The translations under genes and the position numbers were made by a program. From a virus, in the IMG/VR virus record IMGVR_UViG_3300035181_000096, positions 1 to 24,354 of that record: DNA of 24,354 nucleotides; one strand, 5' to 3'. Positions 8,332 to 24,354 of this stretch are shown here, piece by piece. Position 1 is the first letter of the stretch; each line of letters opens with the position of its first letter. The notes under the pieces were generated by a model. That model searched no databases. It was not told where the DNA came from and was given only the letters and a program-made list of their open reading frames with translations.

Positions 8332-8691
8332 ATGCCAAAAATGGACCTTAAGCGATCATACGGAGCCGTGTATGGTCACGACACCGTCAAGTACGAACAG
8401 GATGGTAAGCACTTTGACGGGCAGCTTAATCAACTGAAGCCTGCGAGCGACCCCGTCAGTGACAAGAAGGTCCCGACGCATGTCATCGAGAACGATAAGC
8501 TAGCGAATGCCAAGGCGTTCCTATCTCAGATTCTCAAGGAGAATCCCCTGTCCAAGCCCGTGGTGTATCGTGAGGCTGAGCAGAACAATCAGAAGTGGGA
8601 CGAGGTGCGAGATGCCTTCGTGGCTATGGGGGTTGTCAAATACACCCAGCAGGGTATCGAGATGTGGAAGCTCCCAGAGGCATCTGAATAA
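8332..8691 (+). CDS. Hypothetical protein, 119 aa, possible winged-helix C-terminus
   Basis: AGGAG (8322-8326) overlaps the previous stop and serves ATG 8332. The N-terminal half is Lys/Asp-rich (YGHDTVKYEQDGKHFDG). The C-terminal half reads as three helices (about residues 57-71, 76-87 and 88-101) followed by a short beta hairpin (KYTQQGIEMWKL, about residues 103-114), compatible with a small winged-helix-like fold. I do not recognise a family. The stop and the next start share one base (TAATG), which couples it to the methyltransferase-glycosyltransferase gene and hints at a shared pathway or stoichiometry. The fold is inferred from helix patterning only. Confidence 0.7.
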   Translation: MPKMDLKRSYGAVYGHDTVKYEQDGKHFDGQLNQLKPASDPVSDKKVPTHVIENDKLANAKAFLSQILKENPLSKPVVYREAEQNNQKWDEVRDAFVAMGVVKYTQQGIEMWKLPEASE

Positions 8692-10250
8692 TGGTCTGGA
8701 ACATTTCTGCCCCCTACAAGCCCGAGAGCCAGAAGATTGTCTGGCATGTCGCGCCGTACCTGCGCGGTCGCGGACTGGACGTCGGCGCTGGAGACTTCAA
8801 GGTGCTGCCGCACGCTATCAGTGTGGACAACATGAATCACTCCCAGTTTGGCTTCCAAGTGAAGCCGGACATTCTGTCAGAGGCCGACGACCTAGCCGTG
8901 TTCGCGGACCAAAGTATGGACTTTGTCTATAGCAGTCACACACTAGAACACATTCAAGATACTGGCAAGGCCCTGCGCGAATGGTTCCGTCTGGTAAAGA
9001 TTGGCGGATACTTGGTTCTGTACCTGCCACACAAGGACTACTACCCCAACATCGGCCAGCAAGGTGCCAATACGGACCACAAGCACGACTTTCTTCCTGA
9101 AGACGTGATTGGGAAGATGCCTAGCGGCTGGGATTTGATTGAAATGGAGGAGCGCAATGGAGACGACGAGTACTCGTTTCTGCTTGTATTTAAGCGCCTC
9201 CAGGGCAATAAACGCCTACGGGGCTACCTAGCCCCTAGGCCCGCAAAAACGGCGCTTGTGGTGCGGTATGGGGCCTTCGGAGACCTAATGCAAAGTAGTA
9301 GTGTATGGGCTGGGCTTAAAAAGCAGGGCTACTACGTAACTCTGCACACGGCGGACCCCGGGGCGAAGGTCATTAGCGAAGACCCTAATCTTGACAAGAT
9401 AGTGGTATTCGACAAGGATCAAGTACCCAATGCGAATCTGGTAGACTTTTGGGGCTACTGGAAGACGCGTGTAGACAAGTTTGTCAACCTGAGCGAATCG
9501 GTGGAGGGAACCTTCCTTGCCATGCCCGGCCGCACCGCCCACGGATGGGCTCCACTCATGCGACACAAGCGCATGAACGAGAACTACGTGGCCTTCCAAC
9601 ACGAGATGGCGGGGGTACCTCATGATCCTCAAATCAAATTCTATCCTACTCAGGTTGAACGAGACTGGGCTGCTCAGACTCGTAAGAAAATGGGCAGGGG
9701 TCCTATCGTTGTATGGAGCCTCGCTGGTAGTTCTGTTCATAAAACATGGGCTGGACTCGATGCCATTCTTGCTAGTATCATGGTCAGTTTCCCTGAAGCT
9801 GTTGTCGTACTGGTTGGCGGTCCTGAGTGCGCTATTCTAGAAGCTGGGTGGGAGAACGAGCCGCGTATTATTAAGACAAGCGGCAAGTGGTCCATCCGCC
9901 AGAGCCTCTCGTTCTTGGAACATGCCGACTTAGTCATTGGCCCCGAGACCGGGGTGTTGAATGCTGCTGCTAACATGAGCATGCCCAAGGTTGTCTTCCT
10001 ATCACACTCCACCCATGAAAACCTCACACGAGACTGGCGAAATGTGTTTCCACTATCTAGCGTGGGTACTGTCTGTCCGGGACGTGGCAATGATGAGGCA
10101 CCTGCCTGTCACCAGCTCCACTACGGATTTGCCTACTGCAAGCGAGACGAAACTACGGGTACCGCTCAGTGTCAGGCTGATATCCCAGGAGAACTGGTTT
10201 GGGAAACCATCGAAAGAGCTCTGAGTCCGATGCTACTGAAAGGCACCTAA
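8691..10250 (+). CDS. Methyltransferase-glycosyltransferase (GT9) fusion
   Basis: The 519-aa protein has two enzymes in one chain. Residues 1-165 are a class I SAM-dependent methyltransferase: motif I GLDVGAG (28-34), a downstream acidic position in ISVDN, then MDFVYSSHTLEHI and GGYLVLYLPH. Residues about 186-515 are a GT-B glycosyltransferase of the GT9/heptosyltransferase type. It starts VVRYGAFGD (190-198), has WSLAGSSVHKTW (342-353, the nucleotide-sugar-side motif) and GPETGVLNAAA (417-427), then PKVVFLSHST. It should act in the cytoplasm on a sugar acceptor. The acceptor could be host LPS precursors, a virion protein or a metabolite. The gene is wedged between head proteins by TAATG and TAA/ATG junctions, with no sign of frameshift. 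The domain calls are strong; the role is unknown. Confidence 0.85.
   Translation: MVWNISAPYKPESQKIVWHVAPYLRGRGLDVGAGDFKVLPHAISVDNMNHSQFGFQVKPDILSEADDLAVFADQSMDFVYSSHTLEHIQDTGKALREWFRLVKIGGYLVLYLPHKDYYPNIGQQGANTDHKHDFLPEDVIGKMPSGWDLIEMEERNGDDEYSFLLVFKRLQGNKRLRGYLAPRPAKTALVVRYGAFGDLMQSSSVWAGLKKQGYYVTLHTADPGAKVISEDPNLDKIVVFDKDQVPNANLVDFWGYWKTRVDKFVNLSESVEGTFLAMPGRTAHGWAPLMRHKRMNENYVAFQHEMAGVPHDPQIKFYPTQVERDWAAQTRKKMGRGPIVVWSLAGSSVHKTWAGLDAILASIMVSFPEAVVVLVGGPECAILEAGWENEPRIIKTSGKWSIRQSLSFLEHADLVIGPETGVLNAAANMSMPKVVFLSHSTHENLTRDWRNVFPLSSVGTVCPGRGNDEAPACHQLHYGFAYCKRDETTGTAQCQADIPGELVWETIERALSPMLLKGT
9215..9239 (+). other. Strong hairpin at domain junction
   Basis: GGGGCT and AGCCCC (9220-9225 and 9230-9235) form a tight stem around a four-base loop. 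CCTA (9215-9218) and TAGG (9236-9239) extend it, with one bulged C at 9219. It sits at the linker between the methyltransferase and GT9 domains. No T-tract follows, so it is not an intrinsic terminator on this strand. A translational pause or a fusion scar are possibilities. Confidence 0.5.
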
Positions 10251-11204
10251 ATGGCTACCTCCGGCGTATATTCATTCTATGTTACTCGCGACGACATTGT
10301 AAGGGAGGCGCTGCTGAACATTAACAAAATCGATGGGATAGACCCCATCGAGAGCGTGATTATGAACGACTGCGTTCGTAAGCTCAACCTGTTGATCAAG
10401 CAGTGGATGGGTAAGACTGATTTTGCGCCGGGGCTTAAGGTGTGGACTCGTAAGCGGGCACACCTGTTTCTTCATAGCACTACGGGTCAATACACGCTTG
10501 GGCCATCAGCGGTTGGCTGGGCGGACTCGTACGTACAGACGTATACTACAGCATCTCTAGCCGCCAACGCCACAGTGGTACCGCTCACGTCTATATCAGG
10601 CATGAACGTAGGCGACCACATCGGAATTGAGCTGGACAGTGGTGATCTGTACTGGACTGCTATTGCCTCCTTCGGGGCACTAACGGCTAACCTGACTGTC
10701 GGGGTGCCAAGCACCTCGGCGGCTGGTAATATCGTATTCACGTACACCACGACCCCGCAGCAGCCACTGATGATCGAAACGGCCACGCTGCGGGATGATC
10801 AGTACAACGACACACCCCTGAATATCATGCAGTCGCGGGATTATGACTTCCTGCCGAACAAGGTCAGTCCGTCCAACTATGGCGACCCGACTGCCGTGTA
10901 CTTTGAGAACCAACTCGGGTACAGCTACATCTACACAGATGTTGCTGGCAGCAACGACGTGTCTAAGCACATTGCTCTCACGTTCATGCAGCCCGTGCAG
11001 GACTTCGTTAACAGCACGGACGCCCCATACTACCCTCAGGAGTGGTATCGTCCCCTGTGCTGGGGCCTGAGCCGCGAGTGCGCTCCAATGTTCAATGCAC
11101 AGTGGACTCCCGTACACGAGGAGAACTACAAGGATGCCCTAGCTATCGCTAGGGAGAAAGACCCAGAAGTAGAGACTCGGTACTTCCAACCTGGACAAGA
11201 CTGA
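10251..11204 (+). CDS. P22 gp4-like head-completion / tail accessory protein
   Basis: This protein binds below the portal after packaging and starts the tail platform. The N-terminus (about residues 7-45, with DDIVREALLNINKI and CVRKLNLLIKQWM) matches the helical pattern of P22 gp4 (packaged-DNA stabilisation family), followed by a WTRKRAHLFL strand. At 317 aa it is nearly twice the size of P22 gp4 (166 aa). The extra length includes a beta segment at about residues 98-165 (VVPLTSISGMNVGDHIGIELD and later strands), as in longer family members. It starts immediately after the preceding TAA and ends in a TGATG overlap with the gp10-like gene, the P22 order. Confidence 0.8.
   Translation: MATSGVYSFYVTRDDIVREALLNINKIDGIDPIESVIMNDCVRKLNLLIKQWMGKTDFAPGLKVWTRKRAHLFLHSTTGQYTLGPSAVGWADSYVQTYTTASLAANATVVPLTSISGMNVGDHIGIELDSGDLYWTAIASFGALTANLTVGVPSTSAAGNIVFTYTTTPQQPLMIETATLRDDQYNDTPLNIMQSRDYDFLPNKVSPSNYGDPTAVYFENQLGYSYIYTDVAGSNDVSKHIALTFMQPVQDFVNSTDAPYYPQEWYRPLCWGLSRECAPMFNAQWTPVHEENYKDALAIAREKDPEVETRYFQPGQD
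11137..11154 (+). other. Hairpin near end of gp4-like gene
   Basis: CCCTAGC (11137-11143) and GCTAGGG (11148-11154) form a perfect seven-base-pair stem with a TATC loop, about 50 bp before the gp10-like start. No T-tract follows. It could affect translation coupling or mRNA stability, or be incidental. Confidence 0.35.
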
Positions 11205-12625
11205 TGAAAGACATAACGATATTCGGGACGGGGCTGAACTCGACGTCGTTCGCGATATCGCCTGAGGATCGTCTCAACTGCTACTACGAAGTCCGACAAG
11301 GCCCTGAGGGTACTCGCTACATCGTACAGGGTACCCCCGGAAGCCAGATTCTCTGGACTCTACCTACTGGCCCAGTTCGTGGATGGAGGGTGGTGGGGAC
11401 AGTACTGTATGTCGTAGTTACCGGGTTCCTGTTCACTGTGTCGCAGACAGGCACTATGGTCAAGGTGGGTGCTCTCAGCACTACGTCTGGAGTAGTGTCT
11501 ATGGCAGACACGTACACGCAGCTCGGTATCGTAGACGGTACTGCGGGATACGCATACAATATCGCATCAGCCACGCTGACTGTGATAACTGATGGTAACT
11601 TCCCCAACGGCGCTACGACCATCACAGTGCTGAGCAGCCGGTTCATAGTGGAGAAGCCCAACACCAGAGAGTTCTACTGTAGCGCCATCCTGGATGGTCT
11701 CACATGGACTTACATCAGCCTGCCCATATTCGGCACCAAGGAGCAGTACAGCGACTTGCTGTCTGCGGTAGATGCGTTCAATGGTGTACTGATCCTGTGG
11801 GGCACTGCTAGCATAGAGTTCTGGCAGGACGCAGGGACCAGCCCACAGCCATTCTCCCTCATTCAGGGAGCCACGCGGACCTATGGCCTAGCCGCGAAGG
11901 CGAGCCGTGCAGCGGTGAACAACGAGCTTCTATTTCTGGGAGTGGGCATCCAGGGAGGGTACACTATATTCAGTACGTCTGGATACGACCCCAAGCGGGT
12001 GTCTACCCCAGACGTGGAGGCCCTGCTAGCTCAGCTGGCGATCAGCTTTACGCTGGCCGACGCCGTGGCTATGACGTACAGCGTCAACGGACATGACATG
12101 TACCAGTTGACATTCCCCACAGCCAATATCACGCTGCTGTATGCTGTGGACACTAGGCTGTGGTCGTACACCCAGACTGGCATGGTCAAGGGCAGACACT
12201 TTGGACAGACCAGCGTAAAATTCGCTGGGCTTACTCTGTTTTGTGACTCTACCACTGGCAACATATACCAGATGTCCACACTGGCGTACAGCGACGCTGG
12301 ACAGCCGATTGTGCGGCAGATAACTAGCCGCTCCATACGAAATGGCGGGAACGAGTTCGCTATTACCGAACTGCAACTGCTGATGGACACCGGAGTCATG
12401 CCTCAGGGCAGCGATTATCACATCAGCCTGGAGGTTAGCCGTGACGGGGGGCGCACATTTGGCAGCCCTAGACCACGGACTATGGGCTATGTCGGTCAGT
12501 ACAGGACCCCACGAGTGAAGTGGGACCGCATGGGCTCGGCACGTGATTTTGTACTCAGGCTGACAATGGCTGATCCCGTACCATTCGTGATCGCTGGCGA
12601 AAGTATCGAGACTACCGCAAAATAG
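11204..12625 (+). CDS. P22 gp10-like packaged-DNA stabilisation / tail hub protein
   Basis: The 473-aa product is almost exactly the length of P22 gp10 (472 aa) and has the family's all-beta, propeller-like composition. A short N-terminus (ITIFGTGLNSTSFAISPEDRLN) leads into many Val/Thr/Ile strands with recurring Gly and Trp turns (GWRVVGTVLYVVVTG; VLILWGTASIEFW; LYAVDTRLWSYTQ). The C-terminus (ISLEVSRDGGRTFG, then YRTPRVKWDRMGSARDFVLR) is typical of tail-hub proteins of this group. In P22 the hexameric gp10 plugs the neck beneath gp4 and anchors the needle and tailspikes. It overlaps the gp4-like gene by one codon position (TGATG). A promoter follows its stop. Confidence 0.88.
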   Translation: MKDITIFGTGLNSTSFAISPEDRLNCYYEVRQGPEGTRYIVQGTPGSQILWTLPTGPVRGWRVVGTVLYVVVTGFLFTVSQTGTMVKVGALSTTSGVVSMADTYTQLGIVDGTAGYAYNIASATLTVITDGNFPNGATTITVLSSRFIVEKPNTREFYCSAILDGLTWTYISLPIFGTKEQYSDLLSAVDAFNGVLILWGTASIEFWQDAGTSPQPFSLIQGATRTYGLAAKASRAAVNNELLFLGVGIQGGYTIFSTSGYDPKRVSTPDVEALLAQLAISFTLADAVAMTYSVNGHDMYQLTFPTANITLLYAVDTRLWSYTQTGMVKGRHFGQTSVKFAGLTLFCDSTTGNIYQMSTLAYSDAGQPIVRQITSRSIRNGGNEFAITELQLLMDTGVMPQGSDYHISLEVSRDGGRTFGSPRPRTMGYVGQYRTPRVKWDRMGSARDFVLRLTMADPVPFVIAGESIETTAK

Positions 12626-12692: not shown

Positions 12693-13142
12693 ATGACTAC
12701 CCTAGCTCATGAGATTGTTGATGCTCACAACACCGATCTCCTGTCTGGCGAAGCATTAACGATCAAAGACATCTGCATAGCAGATCGTGAAAAGAACTAC
12801 TCCGATAACGAGCTGGACGGGCTGTCAGTCTACAACGCCCTCCCAAAGATCATGTCCCTCGGTACGAAAATGTACCGTGCTGGTGACACACTCTGGCTTA
12901 CAGATGACTTACCAGAAGGCGGCGTAGAGTTCCACACATCCAACACCGAGAATGGAGCAGGGCTCATCAAGAACATACTGTTGTTTTTCGGCCTCTTAAA
13001 GTCTAAGGGGTATCTGTACGCAGTAACCCACTACGATTTTCCACAGATTAATCATCTATTCTCTAAGACGGACTTGAAGGTCCAGATAGATGAAATCAAC
13101 GAGGGTAAGTATAGGACTTACCGTGCGAAAGTGAGTTTGTAA
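12693..13142 (+). CDS. Hypothetical protein at the start of the ejection block, 149 aa
   Basis: This is the first gene after the 12628 promoter, with only a weak AGG before ATG 12693. It is a mixed alpha/beta soluble protein: an acidic N-terminus, then YNALPKIMSLGTKMYRAGDTL, a Gly-containing loop (TSNTENGAGLIKNI), a hydrophobic helix (LLFFGLLKSKG) and a closing strand (YRTYRAKVSL). The order of elements resembles GNAT-like acetyltransferase folds found in some podovirus internal proteins, but I see no clear acetyl-CoA pyrophosphate-binding loop, so this stays speculative. In P22 the genes at this position are the needle gp26 and gp14. It has no coiled-coil needle character. It is most likely a small virion or assembly protein. 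Confidence 0.7.
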   Translation: MTTLAHEIVDAHNTDLLSGEALTIKDICIADREKNYSDNELDGLSVYNALPKIMSLGTKMYRAGDTLWLTDDLPEGGVEFHTSNTENGAGLIKNILLFFGLLKSKGYLYAVTHYDFPQINHLFSKTDLKVQIDEINEGKYRTYRAKVSL

Positions 13143-13143
13143 T

Positions 13144-14601
13144 ATGGGATTTGTATCACACGTGGCCGACGCAGTCGGCAGCGAAGTCAACCACATAGGC
13201 GATGCTCTCGCCCCTATTGCGCTGCCACTGGCGGCAGCAGCGGCTATCTACTTCACAGGCGGAGCTGCTGGTCTGTGGGAAGGGGTGGGTGAAGCCGCGA
13301 TTGGAGAAGGGGCTGCGGCAGATGCTGCGATGGCCGAGACTGCAGGTGCCGGCGTTGGAGGAGGGGCGCTCGCTACGAATGCTGCCTACGACGCTGCGAT
13401 GGCCGAGACTGCAGGTGCCGGGGCTGTGGGTACTGCCGAGGGCCTTGCGGGCGATGCTCTTGGGGCTGGAGGTGAAGGGGGCCTTGGTGTTTTCTCCCCG
13501 GATGCTGCCGGACCAGCGCAGGTATTTGACCCCGGTGCTCCGATAGAAGGAGTGCCCTCTGCCCCTGACATTACAGGGGTAGGACCTACGACAGTTCCGG
13601 GTCAACCGTGGACCATGGACCAGATAACCAAGGGACTGAGTACTGCGAACTCACTTGTAAAAGCCAACCACGGAGGCTCTACTGGTGGCGGAGCTGGTGG
13701 GGCTGGCGGAACTAATGGCGGCTCGTTCGGCGGGTTGTTCGACATGGACTCGACCATGCCGCAGTTACTTGGATCACTGGGTAGCATCTATGCAGGTTCT
13801 CAGCTCGGGGATGCGATTAAGACTGCTAGCGGTCAGCTCCAGGCTGGTGGCGATAAAGCCATTGGAACCATCCAAGAGAAGCTTGACCCTTACAACAATG
13901 CTGGACGGACTGCGCTTGATCGCTACCAGAAGGGTGTGGCTAGCGGTGGGGAATTTGACACTAAATTCACTATGGCTGACGCTCAGAACAGCGAGGCTAT
14001 GAAGTTCGCTCAGGCTCAAGGAATAGACACTATACAGAACAGTGCTGCCGCCAAGGGCGGACTACTCGGGTCTAACACTCTGGCTGGGCTGACGAAATTC
14101 GGACAAGCGAATGCTGCCCAGTACGAAGACCAAGCCTATCAGCAGTGGCTTTCGAACCGAAACGCAAATCAGAGGGGTGTAGAAACTCTAATGAGTCAAG
14201 GCTACGGCGCGGCTGGCGCAGAGGCAAGTAGCATCAGCGGCATACAGCAAGAAATTGCCAAAGCTCAGGCATCTGGCATTGTTCAAGCCGCCAAGGCTCA
14301 GCAGGACGCTATGGGGAACGCGATTGCTGCGTACGGAGCCCTGAAACCCTCTAGCGTAGCGAACACGAAGCCCGACACGAAGCCCGACACGAAACCCAAC
14401 GCTGGTGGAACTAGTGGAACTGGCGGAACTGGTGGCGGGGTATCCGGCACCAACCCGAACGATATGGGCCCTCAGCAAGACCCGAATGATATGGGCCCTC
14501 AGCAAGACCCGAATGACATGGGCCCTCAGCAAGACCCGAATGATATGGGCCCTAAGCAAGACCCGAACGATATGGGCCCACAATTCACTATGGAAGATTG
14601 A
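13144..14601 (+). CDS. DNA ejection / internal virion protein (P22 gp7-like region)
   Basis: The 485-aa protein has a hydrophobic N-terminal segment (residues 21-45, APIALPLAAAAAIYF) and a long Gly/Ala-rich linker. Its conserved core is at about residues 275-357: FTMADAQNSEAMKFAQAQG, then NSAAAKGGLLGSNTL, QYEDQAYQQWLSNRNANQ and a final GYGAAGA. This core matches the pattern of virion DNA-transfer proteins such as P22 gp7, which leave the capsid and help form the channel across the envelope. The C-terminal tail holds TKPD and PNDMGPQQD repeats. It starts one base after the previous stop with a weak ribosome binding site, so it is probably coupled. The next gene follows four bases after its stop. 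Confidence 0.8.
   Translation: MGFVSHVADAVGSEVNHIGDALAPIALPLAAAAAIYFTGGAAGLWEGVGEAAIGEGAAADAAMAETAGAGVGGGALATNAAYDAAMAETAGAGAVGTAEGLAGDALGAGGEGGLGVFSPDAAGPAQVFDPGAPIEGVPSAPDITGVGPTTVPGQPWTMDQITKGLSTANSLVKANHGGSTGGGAGGAGGTNGGSFGGLFDMDSTMPQLLGSLGSIYAGSQLGDAIKTASGQLQAGGDKAIGTIQEKLDPYNNAGRTALDRYQKGVASGGEFDTKFTMADAQNSEAMKFAQAQGIDTIQNSAAAKGGLLGSNTLAGLTKFGQANAAQYEDQAYQQWLSNRNANQRGVETLMSQGYGAAGAEASSISGIQQEIAKAQASGIVQAAKAQQDAMGNAIAAYGALKPSSVANTKPDTKPDTKPNAGGTSGTGGTGGGVSGTNPNDMGPQQDPNDMGPQQDPNDMGPQQDPNDMGPKQDPNDMGPQFTMED
13324..13421 (+). repeat. 29-bp direct repeat in ejection protein gene
   Basis: The same 29 bases occur at 13324-13352 and 13393-13421, offset by 69 bp (23 codons). Both copies encode AAMAETAGAG in the Ala/Gly-rich N-terminal linker. 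The in-frame spacing points to an internal duplication. Confidence 0.85.
14365..14400 (+). repeat. 12-bp tandem repeat encoding TKPD
   Basis: ACGAAGCCCGAC occurs twice exactly and a third time with two changes (ACGAAACCCAAC), encoding TKPD-TKPD-TKPN. It precedes a Gly/Thr-rich stretch and the larger 27-bp repeat. Confidence 0.85.
14455..14583 (+). repeat. 27-bp tandem repeat encoding PNDMGPQQD, about 4.8 copies
   Basis: Units start at 14455, 14482, 14509, 14536 and 14563; the fifth is partial. Each encodes PNDMGPQQD, with QQ changed to KQ in the fourth. The few differences are mostly synonymous (AAC/AAT, GAT/GAC), which suggests recent expansion. The repeat forms the acidic, Pro-rich C-terminal tail of the ejection protein, ending FTMED. 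It has no spacers, so it is not a CRISPR array. Confidence 0.92.
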
Positions 14602-14605
14602 TAAT

Positions 14606-16297
14606 ATGGGACTCGATGCAAACAACATTCTCTCCGGTGGTGGACGGCCAGTAGATATCGCTGGCGCCATTGACAAGGGTAACGTGACCGCGCACAACGC
14701 TATGATCACGGAGAACCTACGTAAGGAGAATCAGGATGAGCAGGTCATGCAGGACTACATGCGAGTTCCTGGCACTGACTTGCACACATCCAAGGGTGTA
14801 GAGCAGGCCCTTGGACACCTACAAGGTCGGATAACCCCCAAGGCATACGCGGGGGTAATTGATCGGCTTAACAGCCTTCGTAATAGTGAGACTCAGTACG
14901 CCGCTGGTCTTCGTAAGGCCACCAAAGATCAGCTCGAGCAGGAAGAGGAAGAGACCAACTACATTGTTGATCGGGTTGGCCCTATCATCGAGAAAGAAAC
15001 TGACCCAGACGTGTGGGCACAGAAGCGAGATGCTACTCTAGAGTCGGTGGCTAAGGACAAGCTGCCCAACGGTCAGCCACGTCTATCCCCAGAAATCATA
15101 GGTAAGTTGAAGACTCTGCCAAAGTCTGCCTTCGACGCCATGTACTCCATCAGTGGCAACAAGCAGACACAGATTAAGTTGGCGAAGCAGGAGGCTGAGA
15201 CCAAGCTGACCAACGCCCGGGCGGCTGCTACTGAGGGTCTTGGGTCTACAGAGGAGTGGACAGACACTGCGGGCAACACCTACCTCAAGGGAACCAAGAA
15301 CGGCAAGACCGTCAAGATTGGTAGCGAGGGTGAACTCATACCTGTGGTGGCTATGCCCCCGGGGTCTGTCAAGCTGGGCGCTCGCCCTGACACCGGAGCT
15401 GCTAAACTCAAGGCTGGACAGGAGCTGCTGGACTTCGAGAAGAATCCCCCTAGCCCCGCTGAAGAGCAGATGGCTCGCACCTACATGGTCAGCCGCAAGA
15501 TGGAGTCTCTGGGTCAGAATAGCCCTCTGCGCCCCCGCATTGCGATGCTGGCTGCTAAGATTGCCGTGGATGAGGGCCGAGACGTTCTGGCCGACAATAC
15601 CGCGTACAAGGCCGAGACTGGTAACGTCAACAACATGACCAAGCAGTACGGGGTCATCAAGTCTGGTGAACAGACTGTGCTGGGCAACCTCGAGCTCATG
15701 AAGGGTCTCGTGGACAAGGTGGACGATACCGGGGTGCCGGCCCTAGAGCGTTGGACTCGAGCCGGAAAACGGGCTATTGAGGGCGATCCAGATGTCACTA
15801 AGCTCGATGCGCTGGTGCAGTCCACTCAGGCGGACATTGCCAAGGTGTTGTCTGCGGCTACGGGTGCAGGCGGTGTCCCTGTCGAGGCCTTGAAGAAGGC
15901 CCAGAAATACATGGGCGAGAACCTCACATCCGACCAGTTCAAAGCCCTGTATGAGATCGTGCCAAAGGAAATGGCAGTGCGTACAGACAAGATGGAAGCA
16001 CAGATTGCTGGCAGTCTCAACAAGATTCGTCGCCTGACACAAGCTCCCGGGGCAAAGACGTCTAGTTCTGATGAGGTCACGCTGCCTGAGCCAGAGGCTC
16101 GTCAGGAGTTGAAGCTCGCTCGTGAGAAGGTTCGCACGGCTACTGACCCTGAGCAGAAGCGTCTGGCTACTGAGGTGATGCGTAAGCTGGAGTCCGCTCT
16201 GGGAGGCAGGGCTGCGGATACAGCCCCCGTGGAGCGCAGAACCTCCAAGTCTGGTAAGCCGATGATCAAAGTCGACGGACAGTGGGTGTACGAATAA
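14606..16297 (+). CDS. Internal virion / ejection protein, 563 aa
   Basis: ATG 14606, four bases after the previous stop, gives 563 aa. The same frame stays open upstream to 14405, but that part only reads the 27-bp repeats in the wrong frame. The protein is hydrophilic and predicted largely helical, with charged coiled-coil-like stretches (KATKDQLEQEEEETNY near residues 106-121; EARQELKLAREKVR near residues 497-510). The C-terminus is SGKPMIKVDGQWVYE, a type of ending I associate with phage injected proteins. No catalytic motif is visible. It corresponds by order to P22 gp20, though I cannot claim sequence homology. The stop overlaps the next ATG (TAATG). Likely role: DNA delivery during infection. 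Confidence 0.7.
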   Translation: MGLDANNILSGGGRPVDIAGAIDKGNVTAHNAMITENLRKENQDEQVMQDYMRVPGTDLHTSKGVEQALGHLQGRITPKAYAGVIDRLNSLRNSETQYAAGLRKATKDQLEQEEEETNYIVDRVGPIIEKETDPDVWAQKRDATLESVAKDKLPNGQPRLSPEIIGKLKTLPKSAFDAMYSISGNKQTQIKLAKQEAETKLTNARAAATEGLGSTEEWTDTAGNTYLKGTKNGKTVKIGSEGELIPVVAMPPGSVKLGARPDTGAAKLKAGQELLDFEKNPPSPAEEQMARTYMVSRKMESLGQNSPLRPRIAMLAAKIAVDEGRDVLADNTAYKAETGNVNNMTKQYGVIKSGEQTVLGNLELMKGLVDKVDDTGVPALERWTRAGKRAIEGDPDVTKLDALVQSTQADIAKVLSAATGAGGVPVEALKKAQKYMGENLTSDQFKALYEIVPKEMAVRTDKMEAQIAGSLNKIRRLTQAPGAKTSSSDEVTLPEPEARQELKLAREKVRTATDPEQKRLATEVMRKLESALGGRAADTAPVERRTSKSGKPMIKVDGQWVYE

Positions 16298-18084
16298 TGG
16301 CTGGCGCTGTACCTGAAGACGACCTGCCGGACGAGCTCCGTGGGAAGACCGTACCTGCAGACGATCTGCCGGATGAGGTATCTCACGAGACCCCGCAGCA
16401 GATTGAGAAACACGTCAAGAAGCCTGCTGGGCTAGCGGACATCGTAGCTGGCGCTTACAACTCCATACGGGGCGTCAAGCAGAACATCGCCAAAATGGCT
16501 ATAGAGTCACTGACTACTCCGGTCATTGGTGCAGCCGGGGCGCTGACAGCAGCGGTCAAAGGGCCAGAAGCTGGAGCCAACCTTATCCGTAAGGGACAGG
16601 CCAAGGTTGACAGGGCCCTCCCCACGAGCCCAGAAGCCCAGCAGATGTCTAGCAACATCGCCAAGCCGTTTGAGATGGCGAGCGCCAAGCTGGGGGACAT
16701 TGGTGAATCTATCACAGGTGGCCCAGCGGGTCGCACTATCGGAGAGAACGCCATTGAGGTTGGTGCTGCTCTTCTAGGTGCTGGTGGCATGACCAAGGGC
16801 TTGATCAAAGGTGCGGGTGTGAAGCCCGCGCTTACCCAGCGTCAAGATGCTATTGACCGGGCGCGTAAGGTGGGATACCTAGCCAACCCAGAGGATAGCG
16901 CTGGCGGTGCCGTGAATCGGGCAGGTAGCACGATAGCGAACCCCGGGTCTCTAGACCGAGAAATCGCCGCGAAGAACGCCAAGGTTACCACTGATCTCGC
17001 TAAGAAGGACTTGGGAATCGCGCCGAATGAGCACCTGAACGACGCCAACATTCGGGCTGTTGAGGACAAAGCCCTGAAAGCCTACAGCGAGATAGCAGAC
17101 GCTGGGGACCGCATTGGTCTGGTGATGACCCCAGATGAGCAGCTAGCCGCAGCGCTGGGCAAGGTTGATGAATCCCTACACCCTCGCAAGGGGGCGTATC
17201 CCACTCTGAACACAAACCCAGCGCTTGAGCGAGTACGCAGCGCGCTGATGAATCCAGACCAGCCTCCAAATGTACGCACTGTGATGGAGACAGCTCGTCA
17301 GCTTCGTGAAGACGCAATACATGACCTGAAGAGCCCCACAGTGTCTGCAACAGAGAAAAAGCAGCACCTTGCCATGAAGTCGGTAGCTACTGCTCTGGAG
17401 GACTTTGTCGAGCGCAAGCTACAGAGTGGCGTGTACCAAGGTGGTGAAGCCGTGGGCATGGGCACTGGGCCACAAGCAAAAGGGCCAAGCCTTCCAGGCC
17501 CGGCAAAGGACCAGCTTGCCCGCGTTGGAGAATCTCAGCCTCCGGTGGGGCAGCATACTCCGGCTCCCCCAGCTACTAAAGAAGGTGGATTACTACAGCA
17601 CCAAGCGGCTGATGGCCCTGAGCTTTTCAACAAATACCGTCAAGCCCGTGTTACACTGGCGAAGGCTCGGGACATCCGCGAGGCTGCTAACCTCGAGACT
17701 GGTCATGTGGACCCCGCCAATCTGGCTAAGAAGAGTGACAAGTTGACAGGCAGTTTGGCCGACATAGCTCAAGCCCACAAGGCGATGGGGAACGTAGTGA
17801 AGGGCATCGAGGGCAAGACATCCAACGAGGGTCTCCGTGCTGGCGACGCAGCCGTTGGTGCTGAGGTTGCCCATGGGCTCGCTAGCGCTACAGGCATTCC
17901 ACTCGTGGCTCGTAAAGTGATGGCTAGCCGCCTGTATCAAGAATTCATGGCTAATCCCACAGCGTCGAGCCTCGACAAGCTGAAGGCCATGGACCCCGCA
18001 CTCGCTATGAAGGCTCAGGCAGCAATGTCAGCCGCAGCCGTGGGTGCCCAGAATTCACAGCTTCCACCTAGAGCACAAGAATGA
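16297..18084 (+). CDS. Internal virion / ejection protein with tandem N-terminal motif, 595 aa
   Basis: ATG 16297 overlaps the previous stop as TAATG; an upstream in-frame ATG at 16282 would extend into the preceding gene. Residues 5-13 and 19-27 repeat VPxDDLPDE (DNA 16309-16335 and 16351-16377), followed by a basic helix. Two Ala/Gly-rich, mildly hydrophobic segments (PVIGAAGALTAAV, about residues 73-85; AIEVGAALLGAGGM, about residues 152-165) could contact membranes. The remainder is helical with an Ala-rich C-terminus. I take it as an injected protein in the place of P22 gp16, without claiming homology. The paired N-terminal motifs look like docking tags and recur in another form in the 968-aa protein. 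It overlaps the ATP-grasp gene by ATGA. Confidence 0.7.
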   Translation: MAGAVPEDDLPDELRGKTVPADDLPDEVSHETPQQIEKHVKKPAGLADIVAGAYNSIRGVKQNIAKMAIESLTTPVIGAAGALTAAVKGPEAGANLIRKGQAKVDRALPTSPEAQQMSSNIAKPFEMASAKLGDIGESITGGPAGRTIGENAIEVGAALLGAGGMTKGLIKGAGVKPALTQRQDAIDRARKVGYLANPEDSAGGAVNRAGSTIANPGSLDREIAAKNAKVTTDLAKKDLGIAPNEHLNDANIRAVEDKALKAYSEIADAGDRIGLVMTPDEQLAAALGKVDESLHPRKGAYPTLNTNPALERVRSALMNPDQPPNVRTVMETARQLREDAIHDLKSPTVSATEKKQHLAMKSVATALEDFVERKLQSGVYQGGEAVGMGTGPQAKGPSLPGPAKDQLARVGESQPPVGQHTPAPPATKEGGLLQHQAADGPELFNKYRQARVTLAKARDIREAANLETGHVDPANLAKKSDKLTGSLADIAQAHKAMGNVVKGIEGKTSNEGLRAGDAAVGAEVAHGLASATGIPLVARKVMASRLYQEFMANPTASSLDKLKAMDPALAMKAQAAMSAAAVGAQNSQLPPRAQE

Positions 18085-19394
18085 AAGTCCTAATCATAGA
18101 TCAAGATGGGGTTGGCCTGAGCTTCGTGCTGCGGGCCAGTGCCGCTGGACACGATGTTAAGTGGTTTGTCAAGCCACGACCAGCTAACAGCCCGGATGTA
18201 GGAAAGAACTTCAAGGGGGTGAAGAAGGTAGACAACTGGGTCTCGGAAGCCAAGTGGGCCGAACTCATCATCTGCACCAGCAATGATGACTACATCGAGC
18301 GTCTGGCCTTTTTCAAGGAGAAGGGCTACCCGGTGTTCGCCCCCAGCCCCGAGAGCGTTAATCTCGAGATCGACCGCAAGGCAGGAATGAAACTACTGGA
18401 GAAAGCAGGTATAGAGTGCGTTCCGTACAAAACATTCAAGACAATGGGCGAGGCCGAAAAGCACGTCCTAAAGACAAGCGAAAGGTTCGTGTTCAAAACT
18501 CTAGGCGACAACGAAGACAAATCTCTCACCTACGTCAGCAAGTCACCGGCGGATATGATAGCCTGGATGAGAAGGACACCGCCCCCCAAGGGCGAGGTGA
18601 TGCTACAGACCTTTATAAAGGGTATTGAAATGGGCGTATCGCGCTTCATGGGCGCGAAGGGCTGGGTGGGGCAGTGGAATGAATCGTTCGAGCACAAGAA
18701 GCTAATGTCTGGCAACCACGGCCCCAACACGGGTGAGATGGGAACCATTGCCTACTTCACCAAGGAAAGCAAGCTGGGTACCGAGACTCTCGGCAAGCTG
18801 GAGAAGGAGCTGCTCAGTCTCGGACACCTAGGTGACATTGCCATTGGCTTCATGATCGACGAGGCTGGCAAGCCGTGGCCCACGGAGTTCACATGTCGCT
18901 TCGGCTGGCCCATCGCTAACATGATGCTTGGTGCCACGCAGGGAGACCCCATTTCTTGGATGAAGGATGCGCTCGATGGAAAGGACTCTACATCGTTTAA
19001 GGAAGACATTGGTTGCTGCTTGGTTCTTGCTCACGACAAGTTCCCCCATACTGAGGACGTTAAAGCCGCTTCCGGAACGCCAATCTACGGAGTGACCAGA
19101 GGCAACAAGCCGCACCTCCACCCTCAGGCCGTGCAACTGACCAAGCAGCCCAACATGCAGGGTGACAAGCTGGTGGAGGAATTTGTCTGGACCACTGCTG
19201 GGGACTACATTGCTGTGGTGACTGGCTTTGGCAAGGATGTCAAACAGGCGGCGAAAAGGGCCTATAAGACTGCTGACCAGCTACACGTGTCCAACATGCT
19301 CTTGCGAGATGACGTAGGCGAAGCTCTGGAAGAGCAGTTGCCGAAGCTCCACGCTATGGGCTACGCTCTGAGCTGTGAGTATGGACAGCATTGA
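18081..19394 (+). CDS. ATP-grasp ligase, PurD (GARS)-like
   Basis: The 437-aa protein has the length and domain order of phosphoribosylamine-glycine ligase (PurD, about 430 aa): a small N-terminal alpha/beta domain (MKVLIIDQDG), the ATP-grasp domain with RFVFKTLGDNEDKS and EVMLQTFIKGIEM, and SGNHGPNTGEMG (210-221), close to the PurD DGPNTGGMG loop. The C-terminal lobe ends LLRDDVGEAL. The metal-binding element, normally EFNCRFGDPE, reads EFTCRFGWPI here: the Asn is Thr and the DPE is lost. The N-terminal GGREHAL of PurD is also absent. So ATP-dependent carboxylate-amine ligation is likely, but the substrate may not be phosphoribosylamine and glycine. It sits between two injected-protein genes, joined by ATGA and a 14-bp overlap. 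It may act on a metabolite or a virion component. Confidence 0.82.
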   Translation: MKVLIIDQDGVGLSFVLRASAAGHDVKWFVKPRPANSPDVGKNFKGVKKVDNWVSEAKWAELIICTSNDDYIERLAFFKEKGYPVFAPSPESVNLEIDRKAGMKLLEKAGIECVPYKTFKTMGEAEKHVLKTSERFVFKTLGDNEDKSLTYVSKSPADMIAWMRRTPPPKGEVMLQTFIKGIEMGVSRFMGAKGWVGQWNESFEHKKLMSGNHGPNTGEMGTIAYFTKESKLGTETLGKLEKELLSLGHLGDIAIGFMIDEAGKPWPTEFTCRFGWPIANMMLGATQGDPISWMKDALDGKDSTSFKEDIGCCLVLAHDKFPHTEDVKAASGTPIYGVTRGNKPHLHPQAVQLTKQPNMQGDKLVEEFVWTTAGDYIAVVTGFGKDVKQAAKRAYKTADQLHVSNMLLRDDVGEALEEQLPKLHAMGYALSCEYGQH

Positions 19395-22287
19395 AGACTT
19401 CCTGAAGAAGTACCCAGCTCCTACAGAGGTGGCTGCCGAGGAGTCACCCCCAGAGAACGAGGGTCTTAAGGGATTCATGGAGAAGTGGAAGACCTCTGGC
19501 ACGAAGGTGCCAGAGGGGAACGCTGCTAAGATTCTTGGGGAAGCTGCTAAAGACACGGCGTCAAACGCTGAGTCCGTAGCCCGTGGCGCTCTGTCGGTAA
19601 TTCCAGGTCAGTTTGGTGACATGGAGGAGCTTGGTCGCAAGGGCGTAAATACCCTCGCCAACATGACCGAGAAGGCTAAGCAGAACAAGTACTCTAAGCC
19701 TACAAGGGTCATATCTGAAGAGCCAGTGCTGAACACGACTGAGGACTTCCTGAAGAAGTACCCGCAGCGGTTCACCGAGCCTACCCCTCAGACTACTGGA
19801 ATGGAAATGCTAGGGGCCGCTGGGAACCTGGGCGGTATGGAGCGGGGTATCCGCACTGTAGCCGAACTGCCGGGTAACGTCATGCGAGCTGGTAAGGACT
19901 TCGCTGTAGCTGCCGGAGAGACTGGAAAGAGCAAATTGCTTACCTCCCCCACTGCTGAGGAAAAGGCCGCATTCGAAGCTGCCGAGAAGAAGGGTGAAGA
20001 TACTTGGGGCAGTATGAAGATGTTCCGCGACCCCAAGGGCACTATCTTCAAGCGCACTGATGACTCTAAAGCTGAGTGGAAGGGCATGGATGCTCTACAC
20101 GCTAAGGTGCCCAAGAGGAAAGCTGATCTAGACGCCAAGGAAGCTGCTCGGGATGCCCATAGGGAGCAGGTGCCTAGGGATGGCACATTTGAGGATTACA
20201 ATAAATGGCAGGAGGAGCATGATGCTCTTGCAGAAGGCGCGAACGCCGCCCGCAATCTTCTCTACAGCAAGCACAGCACCAAGGGTCTAAAACTAGGTGA
20301 TGTCCTCAAGCACGACGATCTGTTTGCTGAGCATCCAGACATGGCTGACATCAATGTCACCATAGGCACCCCAGCTGAGATGAAGGGTGCCTATGCTCAC
20401 TACCACGGCCCTACACGAACAATCACGCTCAGTGGTCAGACATGGCGTGATCTTGTGCGCGGCATGCCAACTGAGGACAAAGCACTTACAGCCGTACTTC
20501 ATGAGGCTCAACACGACATAGATAACAGTCGTAGGCTCGGCGGTGAAACTAATCTAGACTGGGGCAGTAGCGTCGGTGAGGTTCAGGGTGCTCGTAAGGG
20601 TAAGAACAAGGTAGATGAGAAGACTGCCTTCAAGCTCTACCAAGCTAACCCCGGGGAAGTTCGTGCTCGGTACGCTGAGGAGGGGTATCGCATACCGAAT
20701 GACCAAGCCCCACACCCCATGGAGCTCGGACAGAAAGGTACGTTCGATCTACACCCCGCTAGCTGGGTTCCAGAATCAGAACTAGGCACTCGCCCTGCGG
20801 CTACAGTGGGTAAGACACGCCCCAAGCTGTCAGCCCCTGAGCCAATGGCTACGATGGAAGAAGCTCTGGGAAAGGAGGGCACGACCCTGAAGTCTCTGGA
20901 AACACTACCGATGTCTAAGGGCGTGGTCAATGTGTCCACGGTACGAGATGCTTTGAACCGAGTTGGGGCCAGCAAGCCTGAGCGCGAGGCGCTAGAGTCT
21001 TTCCTCCCCGATGAGGGCACCATCAAGGCTAGCGATCTAGTCGAGCAGTTCCGTGCTGCTACTAAGGACTTCGAGCTCACACCTCACCACCACAAGGAGT
21101 ACGCTGACTACGGGCTGGATGTGCTGCGGGATAGAATGCCCAAGGGTGCTCGTACGACCACATGGCGAGTAGGGGACGGGGTCTCCGGCAGCACTGGCAA
21201 TCACTTCTCAGACCCTCAGTACTTCGCCCATACCCGTGCGTTTGAGGAAGACGGTGTTCCGCACGTTGTAGAGATGCAGAGCGATTTGATGCAGAGGAAG
21301 ACAAAGCCTCTATCAGCAGATGAGCGTAAGTCTCTAGAGGAGGGGAGTGCGAGTATTGAACGGCAACGTAAGATACTGGCTGGACATGATCGTAGAGCTT
21401 TCTCCAACACTACAGAAGACTACCTCAATACCCTCAAGGCTCTAGAGAAGGAGAATCCGGACGCTGCCACCTCCATGTTCCCTATGGTGGAGGATGGGGA
21501 CGACTCATGGGCCACCCTTGACCATCATAGAAAGAATATTGCAGACCATGACCGAGTAGGGGTGGGCGCTAATGATGAAACTGCGGCTAACAGTCGTAAT
21601 TCTTCTGAAGTTCTAGACCGCGCGTTCTATACTCTAGACCGGCAACTCGCACTTAGGGCCAGAGAAAACAAGAATAGACTAAATGAAGCTGGTGCCACCA
21701 AAGACCTCACCCCCATGAAGAAGACCCACGTGGAGAGACTGGTAAAGGAGGAGCTGAACCTAGCTCGTAAGAATGGACAAGAGAGGGTACGATTCGCTAG
21801 TCCAGACACTGTAGCGAAGGTTGAGGGGTGGCCTGATGCGGGTGGGCTTCACGACTACATACTGAGGGATAAGCAAGACTTAAAGCTTCTAGAGAGCGAG
21901 TTAGAAAAGGAAAAAGAATGGTCAAGAAACAACCCCTCCGCAATTCCTAAGGGAGCTAACAGTGCTGAGGTCTGGGAGGCGAAGATCACATTCCGTAAAA
22001 ATCACCTGAGAGATCTCGAGGAGGAATTGGAGGAGTTCAAAGGTAAGACGTACAAGCCCGAACACCAAGGTATCTACGACAACTACAAAGAAATCGAGAA
22101 GTACCTAAAGAAGATCGGAGGGACTGAGTACACAGACCCTCATGGTCACACTTGGATCGAAGTGCCGAGTACAGGCCCCAAGTCCCCAGTCAAGGACGGG
22201 CGAGTTCCGTTGTTTAGTATGACAGGTGCTCCCCTTGCGGGCGGCGCTGGGGCGGGGTACAATGCCAACCAACCGGAGCGCAAGTAG
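19381..22287 (+). CDS. Large polyvalent virion protein with zincin (HEAQH) motif, 968 aa
   Basis: ATG 19381 is chosen; an in-frame GTG at 19375 adds two residues, and neither has a strong ribosome binding site. Residues 5-12 and 121-128 repeat EDFLKKYP. A zincin-type motif HEAQH (374-378, in AVLHEAQHDID) is followed by PGEVRARYAEE (Glu426), a pairing typical of metallopeptidase-like domains in large polyvalent phage proteins. A further module has GNHFSDPQYFAHTRAF and VVEMQSDL (about residues 608-637), like the FVEEIQSDW element of the same proteins. Helical, Lys/Glu-rich segments fill the rest. It is presumably packaged and injected, perhaps cutting a protein or peptide barrier. Catalysis is inferred from motifs only. 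It overlaps the ATP-grasp gene by 14 bp. Confidence 0.78.
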   Translation: MDSIEDFLKKYPAPTEVAAEESPPENEGLKGFMEKWKTSGTKVPEGNAAKILGEAAKDTASNAESVARGALSVIPGQFGDMEELGRKGVNTLANMTEKAKQNKYSKPTRVISEEPVLNTTEDFLKKYPQRFTEPTPQTTGMEMLGAAGNLGGMERGIRTVAELPGNVMRAGKDFAVAAGETGKSKLLTSPTAEEKAAFEAAEKKGEDTWGSMKMFRDPKGTIFKRTDDSKAEWKGMDALHAKVPKRKADLDAKEAARDAHREQVPRDGTFEDYNKWQEEHDALAEGANAARNLLYSKHSTKGLKLGDVLKHDDLFAEHPDMADINVTIGTPAEMKGAYAHYHGPTRTITLSGQTWRDLVRGMPTEDKALTAVLHEAQHDIDNSRRLGGETNLDWGSSVGEVQGARKGKNKVDEKTAFKLYQANPGEVRARYAEEGYRIPNDQAPHPMELGQKGTFDLHPASWVPESELGTRPAATVGKTRPKLSAPEPMATMEEALGKEGTTLKSLETLPMSKGVVNVSTVRDALNRVGASKPEREALESFLPDEGTIKASDLVEQFRAATKDFELTPHHHKEYADYGLDVLRDRMPKGARTTTWRVGDGVSGSTGNHFSDPQYFAHTRAFEEDGVPHVVEMQSDLMQRKTKPLSADERKSLEEGSASIERQRKILAGHDRRAFSNTTEDYLNTLKALEKENPDAATSMFPMVEDGDDSWATLDHHRKNIADHDRVGVGANDETAANSRNSSEVLDRAFYTLDRQLALRARENKNRLNEAGATKDLTPMKKTHVERLVKEELNLARKNGQERVRFASPDTVAKVEGWPDAGGLHDYILRDKQDLKLLESELEKEKEWSRNNPSAIPKGANSAEVWEAKITFRKNHLRDLEEELEEFKGKTYKPEHQGIYDNYKEIEKYLKKIGGTEYTDPHGHTWIEVPSTGPKSPVKDGRVPLFSMTGAPLAGGAGAGYNANQPERK
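19396..19763 (+). repeat. Two copies of a 20-bp repeat encoding DFLKKYP
   Basis: GACTTCCTGAAGAAGTACCC occurs at 19396-19415 and again at 19744-19763, identical at all 20 bases, near the start of the 968-aa protein gene. Identity at synonymous positions suggests duplication or conversion. The span given covers both copies; the DNA between them is not repeated. Confidence 0.85.
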
Positions 22288-22289
22288 AT

Positions 22290-24354
22290 ATGCCAGCTTT
22301 CCTTTCACCAGTATTCGGAGCAGGGGCTCAGCTCTTCACCAATGGGGGCCTTCCTCTCTCCGGTGGAAAGATTTACGCCTACCTCGCAGGTAGTGTCACT
22401 CCTGCTGCCACGTACATAGATTCATCCCAAGGGGTGACGAATGCAAACCCGATCATCCTAGACTCCGCTGGTCGGCCTCCGCAGGAGGTCTGGCTAACTG
22501 GAGGACTCCAGTACAAGTTCGTGGTAACCGACTCTGCTGGAACTCCAGTAGGATACACTTACGACAACGTGGGTGGTGTCAATGACGCCAACTACCCCAT
22601 GAGTTCCATCAACGAGTGGATTCTGGGCAGTACCCCGACCTACATCGGAGCAACTCAGTTCTCGGTACCGGGTAATCAAACTGCGACCTACGTGGTCAAC
22701 CGTCGGGTCAAGGCTAGCGTGACCGCTGGCACTGCATACAGCAGTATCAGCGCGAGCAGCTTCGGTGCAGGCATCACTACTGTAACCGTGGTGAACGACA
22801 GCACCCCTCTGGACTCCGGCCTGTCTGTTCTCCAGTACGCGCTTATCTCTGGCAACCCGAACAGCCTCCCCTCAAGTCTAATCACCTCGGGCTCCATGCA
22901 GGCGCAGGCATATACCAACTTCACCACTGGTGGAGCGACTGGTGCCTACACGCTCACACCTCTACCAGCCATCGCAGCGTATGCGGCGGGGCAGGAGTTC
23001 GACGTTACGTTCCACACAGGAAACGCCGCGAACGCGACCATAGCTATCAGTGGTCTGGCAGCTATCAGTCTAGTCAAGCGGACTGGGGCGGGTAGCTATG
23101 CGAACGTGGCTCTGGGCGACACTCCGACGTCTTGGCGATCTAAGGTGGTTGTGATGCCCGGGGGCACTACGGCCCTCGTGCGTGAACCAGTAGCCTTGCC
23201 AGATGGAATGACTGTGCTGGCCCCGTCGGCGGGGGATAGCTCCAGCAAGGTGGTACCCTCTAGCTTCGTACAGAGTGCTATCGCCTTGGCGGTTACTTCT
23301 GCCGGAGCAGTGGCTGCGTGGGTAAGCGGAGGCACGTACACTCTAGGGAATGTGGTGTACAGCCCAATCAACTTCCACACGTACCGCCACACGACAGCAT
23401 CCAGCAGCTCGACTACGGACCCAAGCCTCGACAGTACGAACTGGACCGACTTGTCGTCCACCATAGGTACGGGCGGTCAAGCCATCACCAGCAATATCAC
23501 TCTCACAGCCTTCAGCAGCGCAGCGATCACTGTCACTCCTACCACTCCCGGCTTGTATGTGACCCTTCCTGACGCGACAACTTGCTCTACTGCGGACAAC
23601 CTCTTTTCCGTCTACAACGCAGGCGACTACGACTACGGCGTAAAGAACAGCGCGGGAACGCAGCTCGGTTGGGTCCGCGCTCGCACGGGTGCAATGATTG
23701 GCCTGTCCGACAAATCCACCGCTGCGGGTATCTGGGCTTACTACGGCCTTGAAAAAACAGGCATCACAGCCTCTTACATCAACCTCACGCTGGTAAACAT
23801 GGGCAACACCATTCGGCGTATTGCGCTGGATGCAACCCGCACTTGCTTCTTGTTTGGCGGTACGGACTGCTACGCGATTGTTTATGACGCATCGACGCAG
23901 ACTTGGGGTGCTGCTACATTGGTGAGGGCATCAATTGCGAGTGGTGCATTCTTGGGTGTGCTGAGCGCTGCTAATCAGGTGTTGGTTTGTTCCAATGATT
24001 CCGCCACTGGAATGTCCACAGTTACCCTGACCATCAGCGGTACTACGGTAACGGTGAACGCACCCATAAGTACAACCTTAGCGGGCAACTGGTCGTCATA
24101 CGGACAACTCATTCCGGTAAGCACTTCATGGGTACTGAGCTATGGACGAGCCACGAACATCAGCGGCATCCGCGCCATATCCGTTGCAGGAACTGTTCCT
24201 ACTGTTGGCGCTGAAACTGCTGTGGCTTCTAGTTTTGCGATTGGCGTAACACTGTTTGCATCTGGCGCTGTGGTGCGGACGCTAGGCTGGAGTGGATCGA
24301 CAAATATCAATTGCATCCCTTATACGCTTTCGGCAGGTACTACCCTCACTGTTG
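22290..24354 (+). CDS. Tailspike / tail-fibre receptor-binding protein (5' part)
   Basis: The frame is open from ATG 22290 to the window edge (688 codons, no stop), starting three bases after the previous stop. The N-terminus (about residues 1-100) has the tailspike head-binding pattern: GGKIYAYLAG, TYIDSSQGV, PIILDSAGRP, LQYKFVVTDSAG, YDNVGGV. Residues about 344-390 (WVSGGTYTLGNVVYS, then DSTNWTDL) resemble a CBM5/12-type carbohydrate-binding module. Beyond about residue 425 come repeated Thr/Ser/Val beta strands with Trp and Gly turns, possibly a propeller or beta-helix that binds receptor. It follows the ejection genes, as the tailspike does in P22-type phages. The C-terminal region is missing, so enzymatic activity cannot be judged. 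Codon use changes near 23560. Confidence 0.82.
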   Translation, partial: MPAFLSPVFGAGAQLFTNGGLPLSGGKIYAYLAGSVTPAATYIDSSQGVTNANPIILDSAGRPPQEVWLTGGLQYKFVVTDSAGTPVGYTYDNVGGVNDANYPMSSINEWILGSTPTYIGATQFSVPGNQTATYVVNRRVKASVTAGTAYSSISASSFGAGITTVTVVNDSTPLDSGLSVLQYALISGNPNSLPSSLITSGSMQAQAYTNFTTGGATGAYTLTPLPAIAAYAAGQEFDVTFHTGNAANATIAISGLAAISLVKRTGAGSYANVALGDTPTSWRSKVVVMPGGTTALVREPVALPDGMTVLAPSAGDSSSKVVPSSFVQSAIALAVTSAGAVAAWVSGGTYTLGNVVYSPINFHTYRHTTASSSSTTDPSLDSTNWTDLSSTIGTGGQAITSNITLTAFSSAAITVTPTTPGLYVTLPDATTCSTADNLFSVYNAGDYDYGVKNSAGTQLGWVRARTGAMIGLSDKSTAAGIWAYYGLEKTGITASYINLTLVNMGNTIRRIALDATRTCFLFGGTDCYAIVYDASTQTWGAATLVRASIASGAFLGVLSAANQVLVCSNDSATGMSTVTLTISGTTVTVNAPISTTLAGNWSSYGQLIPVSTSWVLSYGRATNISGIRAISVAGTVPTVGAETAVASSFAIGVTLFASGAVVRTLGWSGSTNINCIPYTLSAGTTLTV

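Follow-up and report, generated by a model that had tools for sequence, protein, structure and literature searches.

Why would a phage place a relative of the purine-synthesis enzyme PurD directly behind its DNA-ejection genes? The question is raised by one gene in the window, by which we mean the whole stretch of DNA analysed, a virus record from IMG/VR that is 24,354 bases long. A preliminary description of the window had proposed a PurD-like ATP-grasp ligase that is tied to the virion and either joins a different amine or acid or modulates host purine metabolism. The reading that we favour, with a probability of roughly 55%, is that the gene encodes a carboxylate-amine ligase of the PurD fold that has left purine synthesis and belongs to the core of a virion-morphogenesis operon in podovirus-type phages with P22-like ejection proteins. 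The features concerned are listed in Table 1.

Table 1. Positions of the ligase gene, its altered motifs and its neighbours in the window.
Feature	Position	Strand	Basis
Head closure Hc3, P22 gp10-like	11204..12625	+	phrog_578 4.5e-80; bait in core-gene test
149-aa ORF, no family match; slot elsewhere holds GNAT or Asp/Asn hydroxylase	12693..13142	+	
ejA, first ejection-type gene, P22 gp7-like	13144..14601	+	phrog_598 "DNA ejection" 2.3e-12
ejB, second ejection-type gene; ATG 14471 likelier start	14405..16297	+	cluster c2, 48/48 loci
ejC, third ejection-type gene; ATGA overlap with ligase gene	16282..18084	+	synteny, 48/48 loci
PurD-like ATP-grasp ligase, 437 aa	18081..19394	+	ORF, Pfam GARS_A/GARS_C, TIGR00877, AF2, PDB match
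DQDGVGLS; PurD equivalent GNGGREHA, N-domain loop lost	18099..18122	+	column statistics
FEHKK; PurD equivalent QDHKR; Glu204 in place of Asp214 (glycine site), Lys216 (ATP) retained	18687..18701	+	alignment columns
SGNHGPNTGEMG; PurD equivalent GPNTGGMG, second Gly to Glu219	18708..18743	+	alignment columns
EFTCRFGWPI; PurD equivalent EFNCRFGDPE; Thr in place of Asn (Mg element), Trp of Asp, Ile of the glycine-amine Glu	18885..18914	+	
970-aa protein, next gene downstream; HExxH (zincin-like) motif at 20500-20514	19375..22287	+	cluster rows
Tail-fibre-like ORF, continues past window end	22290..24353	+	cluster c1; phrog_26190 8.9e-10

The full-length PurD-type layout that had been described is borne out. 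The Pfam model GARS_A is found in the 437-residue protein above its cut-off (5e-9, 36.7 bits against 27), GARS_C scores below its own (6e-7, 30.1 bits against 34.8), and the NCBI purD model TIGR00877 spans residues 1-414 at 86.9 bits, far below its cut-off of 288; a PHROGs search with the protein matched no family. A profile of the ligase family aligns with solved PurDs from end to end. Structure prediction and comparison with PurD, which had been suggested as a check, give an AlphaFold2 model (55 sequences in the alignment, mean pLDDT 93.9) whose best PDB match is 2yw2, the A. aeolicus PurD (Z 36.4, rmsd 2.9 A, 386 residues aligned). The model has the full-length PurD fold: the top solved structures are all PurD, with PurK, PurT and biotin carboxylase at Z 22-24 and every non-PurD ATP-grasp fold at Z 24 or less. 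A library of predicted viral structures held no close model, its best matches being general ATP-grasp proteins at a TM of about 0.4. With PurD, or GARS (TIGR00877, PF01071 plus PF02843; PDB 2yw2 and 1gso), the phage family shares the N, ATP-grasp and C domains, the ATP-contact lysines, Glu183, Glu269, the glycine-site Arg273 and an R-x-D-[IV]-G ending.

What, then, has changed? Column statistics set 56 phage members against 8 true PurDs; among the 116 columns invariant in PurD, 32 are retained in at least 90% of the phage members and 51 in fewer than 10%. The motifs named in the preliminary description lie as claimed, with SGNHGPNTGEMG at residues 210-221, EFTCRFGWPI at 269-278 and LRDDVGE at 408-414, and the GGREHAL element is indeed missing, DQDGVGLS (residues 7-14) standing in place of the GGREHA loop; G7, R11, E12 and H13 of E. 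coli PurD are retained in 0/56 members. The GPNTG loop is present as described but itself departs from PurD, GPNTGG having become GPNTGE, with Glu in all 56 phage members at a position that is Gly in 8/8 PurDs. A search for conservation of EFT and GWP found E-x-T-x-R invariant in the 56 members (E269, T271 and R273, as is P277) and the Trp of G-W-P nearly so (W276, 52/56); the altered motif is therefore neither chance nor a sequencing error.

The roles of the affected residues are known from A. aeolicus PurD, in which K143, E192 and K214 contact ATP and Asp212, Arg287 and Glu292 make up the glycine site (PMC8880213); we carried these residue numbers to the phage family by alignment and took the roles from that study. 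The family keeps the residues matching K143, E192, K214 and R287; K103 has become Arg, E185 Gln, D212 Glu, and E292 Ala, Ile or another residue. In phage numbering K139, K206 and E269 are invariant, E183 is found in 54/56 members, and the Glu and Lys of the FEHKK element are each present in 56/56. The glycine-site trio is thereby broken, with Arg in 56/56, Asp replaced by Glu in 56/56 and the Glu in 0/56, as is also the count for Glu295 of E. coli PurD. Also unlike PurD, the phage family has lost PGN, the second Gly of GPNTGG and the Asn of EFN, reads GWP[A/I] for GDPE and x[D/E]Y for the C-domain GGR, bears a C-terminal extension, LPxLHxxGYA, and is found in viral late operons. With GARS_A above the Pfam cut-off and the ATP and Mg residues retained, the protein falls within the ATP-grasp superfamily. 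Because these residues are kept and others, among them the glycine-site Glu, are lost, the alignment suggests that the chemistry has probably been kept and both substrates changed. That the enzyme ligates a different amine or acid, as had been proposed, stands as the natural reading of a pocket consistently unlike that of PurD across the phage family.

A scan of viral contigs with the single protein returned 15 relatives at 63-80% identity, and a scan with an alignment at least 273 contigs with relatives, of which the best 80 were examined. The catalytic residues are invariant across the 56 phage sequences at identities down to 38%. In eight unsaturated phage pairs dN/dS is 0.05-0.15, approximate values given high synonymous change, and the intact phage family is under purifying selection. 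The sole clear relative in INPHARED is the metagenome-assembled MW202796 (37% identity); the family is widespread, yet it has no PHROG, and no annotated phage isolate represents it in the collection that we searched.

Clustering of neighbours in 79 non-redundant loci gives the order connector, Hc3, small enzymes, ejA, ejB, ejC, PurD-like gene and then tail fibre. In every locus whose upstream region shows both Hc3 and ejA (48/48), the genes ejB and ejC separate ejA from the PurD-like gene, and some ejection-type family is found upstream in 64 of the 68 loci that have at least 6 kb there; loci L053, L071, L073 and L089 are without a recognisable ejection cassette upstream. This order, together with phrog_598 and phrog_578 in the window, identifies a P22-type ejection operon. 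The label "ejection" for ejB and ejC, which match no family, comes from their position and from the annotation of Xanthomonas phage PBR31, in which internal proteins A, B and C precede the tail spike; the ejC slot matches that of its "putative internal protein C". The 4-bp ATGA overlap between ejC and the ligase gene (18081-18084 in the window) recurs in about 30 loci, and the downstream ORF of the window starts at GTG 19375 or ATG 19381, overlapping by 20 or 14 bases. These stop/start overlaps, which had been read as an argument for the virion, speak for co-expression and not for physical presence in the particle. Likewise, the placement between two injected proteins holds upstream, where the neighbour is ejection-type by synteny, and is less certain downstream, where the window has an HExxH protein of uncertain placement and most relatives have the tail fibre next. 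HExxH occurs in all nine listed members of that 970-aa protein's cluster and recalls the zincins of polyvalent proteins (PMC5512222); the protein may be an injected one of polyvalent type.

Between Hc3 and ejA, 40/48 loci hold at least one of an Asp/Asn beta-hydroxylase (PF05118), a GNAT-containing family, so labelled from tested members that include GNAT acetyltransferases, and a P-loop-like family. The hydroxylase and GNAT, as neighbours of protein-modification type, count in favour of a ligase of the virion module.

Several observations on this module stand on their own. The PF05118-like genes (for example L046:3892-4479, L133:5000-5560 and L131:14782-15675) are a second type of protein-modifying enzyme in it. 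Family c13 (L082:4529-5113, L075:2948-3520), in the same slot, has no Pfam match and starts with a P-loop-like GLPRSRTAW recalling sulfotransferases. The C-terminus of the ejA protein (window 14405-14601) contains a tandem repeat of the peptide DPNDMGPQQ in about five copies. At 8691-10250, within the structural module, the window encodes a SAM methyltransferase fused to a GT9 (heptosyltransferase-like) domain, with relatives in 27/79 loci.

Is the PurD-like gene a fixed part of this operon or a passing one? We used an alignment of Hc3 as search bait, so that loci were not picked by the ligase gene itself. Every bait contig that extends 9 kb or more downstream carries the gene (26/26, missing in none), and 34 bait contigs have it in total. 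About 13 of the bait contigs were new, and the bait alignment came from known carriers, so the result covers the lineage and not all P22-like phages. Within this lineage the PurD-like gene is a core gene, not a movable metabolic gene. In two more distant isolates of similar order, Xanthomonas phage PBR31 and Rhodoferax phage P26218, the slot is without the gene. The tie to the virion module that had been suggested is thus stronger than one window allows, given the fixed order, the core status and the retention in place of a copy that appears dead.

This last copy is a shorter version of 389-390 aa, found at the same place in four Hc3-selected contigs (L174, L177, L189 and L221) and, altogether, in six contigs from separate samples that make up about three lineages (98-100%, 82% and 57% identity). 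It is without E96, R99, K147, K206 and E219 and carries E183Q, E204T, E269K and T271K; a second PurD-like copy was sought in each of the six contigs and none was found. The family of the 970-aa protein is also downstream of three of the four degenerate copies first sampled. Among the degenerate copies dN/dS is 0.05-0.26. The predicted structure, from an alignment that included intact relatives, has a pLDDT of 92.4 and matches 2yw2 at Z 27.9 (rmsd 3.2, 349 aligned). Judged by its residues, this branch is catalytically dead, and it evolves under purifying selection. That a dead version stays conserved in this slot is our strongest evidence that the protein body has a function of its own, which points to the virion or its assembly. 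Alternatively, the activity could have become dispensable and the protein be drifting slowly, though dN/dS is low.

How might a ligase of the virion-morphogenesis operon work? In intact members Mg-ATP would be bound and a carboxylate other than free glycine, held by Arg273, would be phosphorylated; the acyl phosphate would then be attacked by an amine other than phosphoribosylamine. The ligase may act on, or travel with, late gene products such as tail-fibre or ejection proteins. The protein body may in addition serve non-catalytically, during assembly or as part of the particle, and this would explain why one branch keeps the protein after losing catalysis. A more specific version, which we offer tentatively, is a virion-associated ligase that forms amide links between an amino acid or other carboxylate and either the tail or ejection proteins or, after ejection, some cellular target, with one branch a structural pseudoenzyme in the same place. 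T4 Alt and the polyvalent proteins (PMC5512222) are likewise enzymes encoded among virion genes, and their transport inside the particle is established or predicted; they differ in fold and activity from the PurD-like protein, which may be packaged as well. Tagging of the C-termini of ejection proteins was considered and rejected: a conserved C-terminus was looked for in these proteins and is absent, and their frequent final Gln, Lys or Glu stems from the ATGA overlap. A literature search found no paper on ATP-grasp modification of internal virion proteins. Two questions are raised, what the ligase joins and why the protein persists without catalysis; both can be put to a direct test, since there are an intact enzyme, a dead copy in the same slot, a clade of cellular sisters and, in hosts that can be cultured, prophages.

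The cellular sister clade bears on a different reading, in which a non-purine ligase produces a small molecule in the infected cell or alters some component of the host, such as an amide of the cell envelope or of a metabolite, and is merely expressed with the late operon. Its members are annotated as "phosphoribosylglycinamide synthetase C domain-containing" proteins (Halarchaeum WP_123078225, Roseomonas WP_207415351 and Sphingomonas WP_187715999) and occur in three of 385 alphaproteobacterial genomes, each of which has a separate purD. They resemble the phage family in [FW]EHK, TGEMGT, EFTxRFG[YN]P and the C-terminal extension, and differ in being about 30% identical and in lying outside phage operons. 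In a tree the phage members form one clade and the cellular sisters another, and both together stand apart from PurD (SH-aLRT 99, 96 and 100). Several sisters adjoin a methyltransferase, a haem-oxygenase-like iron enzyme and a SET protein, and those in L143, L145 and L124 possibly belong to biosynthetic clusters. Such surroundings and the separate purD are another sign of a non-purine amide ligase, and the small, biosynthetic-looking clusters lend themselves to the small-molecule reading, as do other phage amidoligases thought to target cell walls or metabolites (PMC10580990). The ATP-grasp enzymes of LUZ24- and OM43-type phages (Amidoligase_2, COOH-NH2_lig) are like the present family in their predicted carboxylate-amine ligase chemistry, but belong to other families, and their genes accompany a glutamine amidotransferase in early or metabolic modules instead of following ejection genes (PMC3890496, PMC10580990). 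A free metabolic enzyme would not be expected to hold its place beside the ejection genes over 40-80% identity, to be core and not patchy, or to leave a dead copy retained in place, and we consider this reading rather unlikely.

Improbable, in turn, is a structural or scaffold protein in all members that only looks like an enzyme: the degenerate branch, conserved despite its lost and changed catalytic residues and still predicted to fold alike, would suit it, but catalytic residues invariant in 56 other members down to 38% identity are hard to explain without catalysis.

There remains the reading as an auxiliary metabolic gene, a viral PurD that raises the output of purines. Several virome surveys list viral purD in this role (PMC11097641, PMC12043954, PMC11360552), and, leaving aside the family identity of those genes, they favour it together with the PurD homology over the full length and one prophage host assembly without a detectable purD. 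Prophages with the PurD-like gene are found in two Paraburkholderia, a Rhodanobacteraceae strain and a Nevskia MAG, and in four further genomes out of 299 that we searched from the family to which the Paraburkholderia host belongs. The exception is the Rhodanobacteraceae strain ZG21-1 (locus L105), in which purH is present and no purD was detected, beside purH or elsewhere; the best PurD-type match in its genome is the prophage gene itself, and 20/20 relatives have purD, an absence that may be an assembly gap. The other seven of the eight prophage hosts carry their own true purD (557-578 bits). A literature search found no paper on prophage phosphoribosylglycinamide synthetase in Burkholderia. 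Rather than being patchy, host-like in sequence and set in a nucleotide-metabolism context, the gene is core (26/26), lies in a late operon with no nucleotide-metabolism region in the loci read, and forms a clade apart from PurD. A role in purine metabolism, the modulation of the host included, is thus very unlikely, and we reject it on motifs (the glycine-site Glu and the GGREH, PGN and GGR elements are gone), on the score against the purD cut-off, on context and on host purD. Homology pipelines would tend to call the phage family purD; if the virion-module reading is true, some "viral purD" genes taken in virome surveys as virus-driven purine synthesis could be late virion-module genes.

Records filed as phage may also hold genuine purD. 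INPHARED hits in faecal records titled "Bacteriophage sp." and in Pseudomonas phage Y11 were considered as members of the family; the four examined have canonical GGREHA and E[FY]N[CA]RFGDPE and were rejected. These four (MT835525, OQ572412, MT836023 and MT838306), of which three are faecal scaffolds and one is the UNVERIFIED record of phage Y11, contain canonical purD genes and may be bacterial DNA or misassemblies.
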